The notes below the pieces were generated by a model. The model was not told where the DNA came from. It worked only from the letters and a program-made list of their open reading frames with translations, and did not search any database. A program made the translations under genes and the position numbers. Source: Archangium sp. (GTDB lineage Bacteria > Myxococcota > Myxococcia > Myxococcales > Myxococcaceae). From it: a DNA stretch of 64,000 nucleotides. Where the stretch lies: the NCBI GenBank assembly GCA_030695565.1, contig JAUYRZ010000085.1, positions 124,001-188,000 of the forward strand, given 5' to 3'. Below, in pieces: positions 47,975 to 49,975 of this stretch; the stretch's first letter is position 1, and every line of letters begins with the position of its first letter.

Positions 47975-48964
47975 TCAGACGTTGCCGTCGAGGAAGGCGA
48001 AGGTGTCCTTCCAGCAGCGTTGGGCCTGAGGCGTGACCACGAAGGCATGAAAAGCATGGGGCCCGCGGGGATACTCGCGGGCTTCGCTTTTGGTGGAGCC
48101 CAGCAGGTGCAGCGCCTTCACCATGCGCTGCGTGTCGCCCATCAACAGATCCCACGTGCCGCACGGCAGGAAGAACGGCGGCAGCGGTCGGTCGATGCTC
48201 TTCAACCCTTCGAAGGCCACCACCGGGTTGGCGAGCTCCAGCGTGCGTCGATCTCGCAGCGTCACGCCGTGCAGATACGCGTCGGTCACCTCTTCGATGC
48301 GATCGCGGAAGAACGAGGCGTGGTGCGAGAACCGTTCGGGGTTGCTCACCTCGAACAGGCCGCATGCGGCGACCACCGCTTTGGGCGTCACCCCGGTGGC
48401 GAAAGCGTCGCGCGCGTACGGCTCGTCGCGGCGCTGATGCGTCATCAGGGTGAGCGAAGCGGCCAGGTTCGCGCCGGCCGATTCACCCGCCACCACCACG
48501 CGCGAGAGATCACCGCCCAGGCGCTCGGCGTTGGAGACCAGCCACTGCCAGGCCGCGCTGATGTCTTCCACCGCTCCGGGGAACGGGTGCTCGGGAGCGA
48601 GGTGGTAGTTCACGTTCACCACCAGATAGCCGCGGCGCGCGTAGACGAGGCCGAAGAGCCAGTGCGTGTCCTTCGACATGAAGCGGAAACCGCCGCCGTG
48701 CACGTAGAGCACGATGGGCAACGGGCCCACCGCGTTCCTGGGGCGGTACACGTCGAGCGTGTGCGCCACCCGGCCGGTGCGGCGGTAAGGCAGGTTCTTT
48801 TCTACCGAGATCGAGTGGAAGCGCGGAGAGGCGACCGGCAGCCACCCTGCTCCTTTCGCCGCGCCGAGGAAGAAACCGTCGGTGACTGCCGCTCCCACTC
48901 GGCGGCGCAGGCGCGCTCCCAGACCCAGCGACGGACGTTCGATGCGCAGATGCTCGGTCGACAC
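47975..48964 (-). CDS. Alpha/beta hydrolase, HSL-type esterase
   Basis: 329 residues from a GTG at 48964 (VSTEHLRIERPS). A longer open frame from 49072 overlaps the selenoprotein gene in another frame and is not needed. Motifs: oxyanion-hole HGGGFRFMSKD, nucleophile GESAGANLA, and acid/base 'GTWDLLM' and 'GPHAFHAF'. The HGGG and GxSxG arrangement is that of hormone-sensitive-lipase-type esterases. No signal peptide. Start lies 4 bases after the selenoprotein stop, in a three-gene minus-strand group: TSUP permease, selenoprotein, esterase. Confidence 0.85.
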   Translation of the reverse strand: MSTEHLRIERPSLGLGARLRRRVGAAVTDGFFLGAAKGAGWLPVASPRFHSISVEKNLPYRRTGRVAHTLDVYRPRNAVGPLPIVLYVHGGGFRFMSKDTHWLFGLVYARRGYLVVNVNYHLAPEHPFPGAVEDISAAWQWLVSNAERLGGDLSRVVVAGESAGANLAASLTLMTHQRRDEPYARDAFATGVTPKAVVAACGLFEVSNPERFSHHASFFRDRIEEVTDAYLHGVTLRDRRTLELANPVVAFEGLKSIDRPLPPFFLPCGTWDLLMGDTQRMVKALHLLGSTKSEAREYPRGPHAFHAFVVTPQAQRCWKDTFAFLDGNV

Positions 48965-48968
48965 GACT

Positions 48969-49199
48969 TCAGACTCCCATTGCGGCAGAGACGGCGTCGA
49001 CCACGTCTTTCTCGGTCGGGAACCGGCCCATTTCCTTCTTCGCGACGACTCTTCCATCCACGGCGACTTCAAAGATGCCGCCCGAGCCTCTGATGAATTC
49101 AGCCTCGAGCTCGAGTTCTTCCTTCAGCGCGTCTGCCGCACGGGCAGCTCTGGCCAGGTAGCCTCAGGCAGTGCAGTAGGTGATGGTGATCTTCGCCAT
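48969..49199 (-). CDS. SelW/Rdx-type selenoprotein with in-frame UGA (Sec)
   Basis: Reading the minus strand from ATG 49199 gives 76 codons with one internal TGA at codon 12 (49164-49166). Decoding it as selenocysteine yields an Rdx-family protein beginning MAKITITYCTAUGYLARAA. The motif YCTAUGY is the CxxU redox motif of SelW-type proteins, where others have CxxC. The rest (ALKEELELEAEFIRGSGGIFEVAVDGRVV..., RFPTEKDVVDAVSAA) has the beta-alpha-beta-beta-alpha order of the thioredoxin-like Rdx fold, including the 'GxFPxEKDV' end. A ribosome-binding site AAGGAG lies six bases before the ATG, overlapping the TSUP stop. It continues without other stops to 48969. Role: probably a selenol-based thiol redox protein in the cytoplasm. 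Confidence 0.85.
49133..49147 (-). promoter_or_regulatory. Putative bacterial SECIS hairpin
   Basis: Sixteen bases after the UGA the mRNA forms CUGCC-CGUGC-GGCAG, a 5-bp perfect stem with a 5-base loop containing GU. This is the size, position and loop chemistry expected of a bacterial SECIS element read by SelB. Lower stem pairing is weak and was judged by eye only. Confidence 0.6.
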
Positions 49200-49210: not shown

Positions 49211-49975
49211 TCAGGGGGTGTGCATCAGTTCGTAACCGAGCTTGGTCACCAGCGCCAAGACGACCAGCAGCACCACGCGACGCACCAGGGTGTCACCACC
49301 CCTGACCGCGAGGTGGGCGCCGAGGGTGCCCCCGATGAACTGGCCCGCCGCCATGGGGATGGAGACCTTCCAGATGACGAAGCCCTTCCAGGTGAGGAAG
49401 AGCATCGCGGCCAGGTTCGAGGCGAAGTTCACCACCTTCGCGTTGGCCGAGGCCTCCTGCAGGGTGAGGTGGCGCAACACCACGAAGCCGATGATCAAGA
49501 AGGTGCCGGTGCCCGGGCCGAAGAAGCCGTCGTAGGCGCCGAGGAACAGGGCGAGGAACGCGGTCTTCACGCCTGCGCGGGGTGAAGGCACGCCGGTCTG
49601 CACCGCGGGTGGTCGCACGAAGGCCACCACGAAACCGGCCACCACCAGCAAGATGAGCACGAGGGGCTTGAGGACTTTGGGGTCGAGCGCGGTCAGCAAC
49701 GCCACGCCGGCGAAAGAGCCGAGCATGCCCAGCGGGAAGAGCACCTTCGCCCGCTTCGAGTCGATCAGCTTCGCGCGCCAGAACCGGAGCAACGCCGCGC
49801 CGCTGCCGAAGACCGCGGAGCCCTTGTTGGTGCCGAAGACCATCGGGGTGGGCATGCCCGTGGCGAGCAGGGCGGGCACGGTGAGCAGGCCTCCGCCGCC
49901 GGCGATGGCGTCGACCAGGCCCGCCAGCAGCGCGACGAAGAAGAGGCCGACGATGATGAGCGGCGAGAACTCCAA
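49211..49975 (-). CDS. TSUP/TauE-SafE family membrane transporter
   Basis: 254 residues, about eight transmembrane helices. The N-terminal repeat 'IIVGLFFVALLAGLVDAIAGGGGLLTVPALLATGMPTPMVFGTNKG' has the family's conserved GGGG and GTNK elements, and the second repeat contains 'GAYDGFFGPGTGTFLIIGFV'. TSUP proteins transport sulfur-containing anions such as sulfite, sulfoacetate or thiosulfate, and some are near selenium metabolism genes. It is the first gene of the group with the selenoprotein, whose ribosome-binding site overlaps this stop. A transport role for selenium or sulfur here is inference. Confidence 0.88.
   Translation of the reverse strand: MEFSPLIIVGLFFVALLAGLVDAIAGGGGLLTVPALLATGMPTPMVFGTNKGSAVFGSGAALLRFWRAKLIDSKRAKVLFPLGMLGSFAGVALLTALDPKVLKPLVLILLVVAGFVVAFVRPPAVQTGVPSPRAGVKTAFLALFLGAYDGFFGPGTGTFLIIGFVVLRHLTLQEASANAKVVNFASNLAAMLFLTWKGFVIWKVSIPMAAGQFIGGTLGAHLAVRGGDTLVRRVVLLVVLALVTKLGYELMHTP

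Follow-up and report, generated by a model that had tools for sequence, protein, structure and literature searches.

A SelW-like selenoprotein gene with a predicted selenocysteine codon and a conserved in-frame hairpin in Archangium sp.

We conclude that the minus strand of the window, the stretch of 64,000 nucleotides from Archangium sp. analysed here, carries at 48969..49199 a SelW-like (Rdx family) selenoprotein gene in which a UGA codon is predicted to be read as selenocysteine (Sec), and we put the probability of this reading at about 96%. The frame opens with an ATG at 49199-49197 and runs through 76 codons to a TGA stop at 48971-48969, interrupted only at codon 12 (49166-49164), by an in-frame TGA that forms the last position of the CxxU motif C-T-A-U. 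The translation, with U for TGA, is MAKITITYCTAUGYLARAARAADALKEELELEAEFIRGSGGIFEVAVDGRVVAKKEMGRFPTEKDVVDAVSAAMGV. A Shine-Dalgarno-like AAGGAG can be read directly on the same strand at 49211-49206, 6 nt 5' of the ATG. The original prediction, made from the letters of the window, had given these coordinates, the motif, the AAGGAG and the 76-codon frame with one TGA, and all proved correct on re-reading. It had also described the gene as hidden; the frame is indeed absent from a plain ORF listing of the window, but the NCBIfam model CXXU_selWTH detects it once the UGA is read through.

For family profile searches, Cys was put in the place of Sec. Pfam Rdx (PF10262) matched residues 3-71 with 55.2 bits (E 8.4e-15; cut-off 22.6), a match far beyond chance that spans the TGA. 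CXXU_selWTH (TIGR02174) scored 52.6 bits against a cut-off of 34.2. The score with NF041051 (SelTWH_Campy), 70.5 bits, lies under the curated cut-off of 88, so we do not claim membership in that narrower family. An AlphaFold single-sequence model of the product reached a pLDDT of 81.6; its top Foldseek matches were SelW-family structures (2oka, 3dex, 2fa8, 2obk, 2p0g and mouse SelW, 2npb), and model and matches alike display the thioredoxin-like beta-alpha-beta-beta fold of SelW/Rdx proteins. The SelW/Rdx-type assignment originally proposed is thus shared by both profiles and by the structural comparison. The closest PDB protein by sequence is MIEN1 (E 3e-10), which has a CEPC motif with Cys at the Sec position. 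Similarly, the Cys-containing Rdx/SelW-related proteins Atu0228 (2fa8), that of P. aeruginosa (2oka) and SAV_2001 (3dex) share fold and family with the window protein but have Cys where it has Sec. Mammalian selenoprotein W (2npb) agrees in fold and in the position of the redox motif, although the sequence match is weak (E 0.033).

The UGA is conserved across relatives. A selW homologue was found in 61 of 116 related genomes, 60 of which have it with exactly one TGA; counted by homologous places, exactly one TGA occurs in 60/62, and no homologue in the 116 genomes has TAA or TAG in its stead. At codon 12, TGA is present in 57 of the 58 aligned copies and TGC in the remaining one (genome G074), and three more divergent copies outside this alignment have TGA too. 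The only two sense-codon copies among the 116 genomes, that of G074 and the second copy of G025, both encode Cys. Phylum-wide, an Rdx match was obtained in 99 genomes, of which 97 contain a TGA copy; the other sense-codon case at this scale, G130, reads CYRC. The motif near the N terminus is therefore CxxU in the window gene and CxxC in G074, the second copy of G025, G130 and MIEN1, and the homologue alignment suggested by the original prediction returns Sec-UGA or Cys at codon 12.

The presumed SECIS element of the window is a hairpin, CTGCC-CGTGC-GGCAG, at 49147-49133 on the minus strand; its 5-bp stem (CTGCC/GGCAG) starts 16 bases past the TGA and its loop CGTGC lies 21 nt from the UGA. It is placed inside the coding region, whereas the eukaryotic SECIS of mammalian selenoprotein W is in the 3' UTR. 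Published bSECIS rules ask for an apical loop of 3-9 nt with a G among its first two bases, a stem of 4-16 bp, a distance of 16-37 nt from the UGA and an energy of at most -7.5 kcal/mol (PMC13188914). Stem (5 bp), distance (21 nt) and loop (CGUGC) fit, but the energy of the bare hairpin, -6.3 kcal/mol, is outside the limit (-7.6 kcal/mol with flanking bases). The 47-nt stretch that contains the hairpin folds no better than its shuffles (z +0.93) and favours a different hairpin, and with its 5 bp and low stability the window copy stands at the weak end of the homologue set. The SECIS-like hairpin of the original prediction is right in length and position and is kept in homologues, but it gains no support from folding energy by itself. 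We rejected minimum-energy folding as evidence for a SECIS element: recoded controls, being GC-rich, fold equally well, and z-scores across all copies are about zero. The RNA case thus rests on position-specific conservation and, with a window hairpin that is short and not the favoured fold, is a comparative one.

A five-base loop CG[U/G]G[C/U] is found 21 nt past the UGA in 56/56 alignable copies, with G at position 2 and T or G at position 3. When codons are recoded synonymously, the seven pairs flanking it form in 0.736 +- 0.017 of cases; in the actual copies the figure is 0.964. Arg in the loop is encoded by CGT or CGG in all 56 copies; among the remaining Arg codons of the gene, CGC (39/112) is as common as CGG, and CGT is rare (5/112). 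The clearest sign of a SECIS element is a synonymous covariation between two Ala codons, 6 and 10 past the UGA, which read GCC..GCG in 37 copies, GCT..GCA in 11 and GCT..GCG in 8. The pair-breaking combination GCC..GCA was never seen in the 56 copies (Fisher 5e-7, with copies treated as unrelated), and GCT..GCA is not confined to the window's family but also occurs in G094, which belongs to another one. All published bSECIS rules are satisfied by 83% of UGA copies versus 23% of recoded controls. More distant families have a different stem and GGUC or GUC loops, 21-22 nt from the UGA. At one locus of G025 (L073; G025:C44:127670-128265) a Sec copy of SelW (CNSU) lies beside a Cys copy (CVTC); the latter has no such hairpin and provides a natural control. 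The Cys copy of G074 has only a weaker hairpin, at 17 nt.

All four Sec genes, which the original prediction had proposed to look for, are present in the source genome. An Rfam scan of the window returned two ordinary tRNAs only and no SECIS family, so tRNA-Sec was sought genome-wide; it was found (69.1 bits, anticodon TCA) some 63 kb from the window start on the contig that includes the window, together with SelA (547.6 bits), SelB (295.6 bits) and SelD (375.3 bits) in the genome. Sequence by itself cannot separate Sec insertion from a reading of the UGA as another residue (near-cognate readthrough as Trp, or Cys), and the weak hairpin of the window leans toward the latter. We nevertheless regard such decoding as very improbable, given the full Sec machinery, a hairpin constrained as expected for a SECIS, and a UGA that is replaced only by Cys, giving a CxxC site. 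Moreover, UGA-selW co-occurs with SelA, which is present in 58/60 carriers versus 41/56 other genomes (Fisher 4e-4; indicative, since the genomes are related). The two carriers lacking SelA are drafts, each <90% complete, and in one of them (G029, 87% complete) neither SelA nor tRNA-Sec was found. In G074, which has the Cys copy and is 98% complete, SelA was not found and no tRNA-Sec exceeded the cut-off.

Many Myxococcaceae, e.g. G015, G016, G020 and G021, have SelA and tRNA-Sec without SelW, so other selenoproteins must keep the Sec trait there. The complete genome G048 belongs to a genus otherwise equipped with Sec genes but lacks SelW, a full SelA and any tRNA-Sec above the cut-off, an apparent loss of the trait. 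In G012, a second tRNA-Sec-like gene (G012:C1:5182915-5183007; 59.5 bits) lies about 22 kb away from the first, which scores 73.2 bits. In the source genome, three peroxiredoxin-like genes each contain one in-frame TGA, at TPGU (L089; G000:C134:95082-95447), WUPYC (L090; G000:C130:37563-37922) and GULLC (L091; G000:C30:102209-102460, a weak family match). The UGA sites are typical of Sec, each is followed by a G[U/G]-type hairpin at about 21-26 nt, and these genes are probably further selenoproteins of the genome. Formate dehydrogenase was considered as the main selenoprotein of the genome and rejected, as none of the homologues found here has a UGA.

The codons past the UGA evolve as protein. 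Against eight relatives, pooled pN was 0.17 and pS 0.63 over codons 13-62 after the UGA, which indicates purifying selection and a conserved reading frame; over the first 12 codons after the UGA, pS drops to 0.36, as expected of an overlapping RNA element. With the frame conserved, the Sec genes present and Sec-UGA or Cys in the homologues, none of the three refuting outcomes named in the original prediction was observed. An in-frame TGA that splits the frame could in principle mark a decayed Rdx pseudogene in which mutation turned the Cys codon into a stop. This explanation is refuted by phylum-wide conservation: the TGA is common to 60 genomes of many genera and several families, the region beyond it is under purifying selection, and there is exactly one stop, always TGA and never TAA or TAG. 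We likewise find next to no room for a true stop at the UGA that would leave an 11-residue leader peptide regulating the downstream hydrolase gene: the frame does have a closely spaced gene on either side, but the codons past the UGA have a pN/pS well below 1 and match Rdx, and the gene persists in most relatives with different neighbours.

A CxxU protein of the SelW fold is a thiol/selenol redox protein. In the Sec reading, SelB would bind the hairpin and deliver Sec-tRNA-Sec to the UGA, yielding a 76-residue thioredoxin-like protein whose CxxU redox centre is predicted to lie where the first strand ends. Cys9 and Sec12 may then form a selenenylsulphide, as in the SelW family, and by family membership the product would be a small redox protein of the thiol/disulphide or the peroxide-responsive kind.

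Directly upstream on the same strand lies a gene for a TauE/SafE-family membrane protein (49211..49975; PF01925, 161.4 bits), with its stop 11 nt before the selW ATG. Downstream is an alpha/beta-hydrolase gene (Abhydrolase_3; 47975..48964, minus strand; PF07859, 136.8 bits) with a likely GTG start about 4 nt past the selW stop. This spacing suggests that the three genes are probably co-transcribed in the source lineage, with selW in an operon. The TauE gene adjoins selW in 16/58 loci and the hydrolase gene in 12/58, mostly in close genera; in some loci the TauE stop and the selW ATG share an overlapping ATGA, and in others the neighbours differ. We therefore rejected TauE as a conserved partner of selW, which holds in only about a quarter of loci, and treat co-transcription as likely here and shared function as a suggestion only. 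Compared with bacterial SelW-like selenoproteins in general, the TauE and hydrolase context seems confined to the window gene's own lineage. That the cluster is a lineage-specific functional unit, with the selenoprotein working for the transporter, e.g. in sulphur or selenium oxyanion handling, appears rather unlikely; if true, it would tell what a bacterial SelW does physiologically.

SelW-like selenoproteins are well known in bacteria and among the commonest, and the window gene joins this known family, having its PF10262 domain, size, CxxU motif and UGA with a presumed in-frame SECIS. The family is classed with the high-confidence predictions among bacterial selenoproteins (PMC13188914), yielded a count of 10 in an early survey of genomes (PMC1794560) and outnumbers every other prokaryotic selenoprotein family in ocean metagenomes, with 427 Sec versus 56 Cys forms (PMC2398784). 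For Anaeromyxobacter, 11 selenoproteins were reported, and SelW is absent from those listed (PMC1794560); text searches of PMC13188914, PMC1794560 and PMC2398784 gave no mention of Myxococcaceae for the SelW-like family. Our analysis indicates that sequence can suffice for a correct reading of a gene that ordinary gene finding easily misses, and that nearly all SelW-bearing myxobacteria of the phylum retain the Sec form, together with a clear SECIS signature at synonymous sites. They offer a culturable group in which to ask what bacterial SelW does, a function treated in the papers cited here as predicted rather than experimentally settled.
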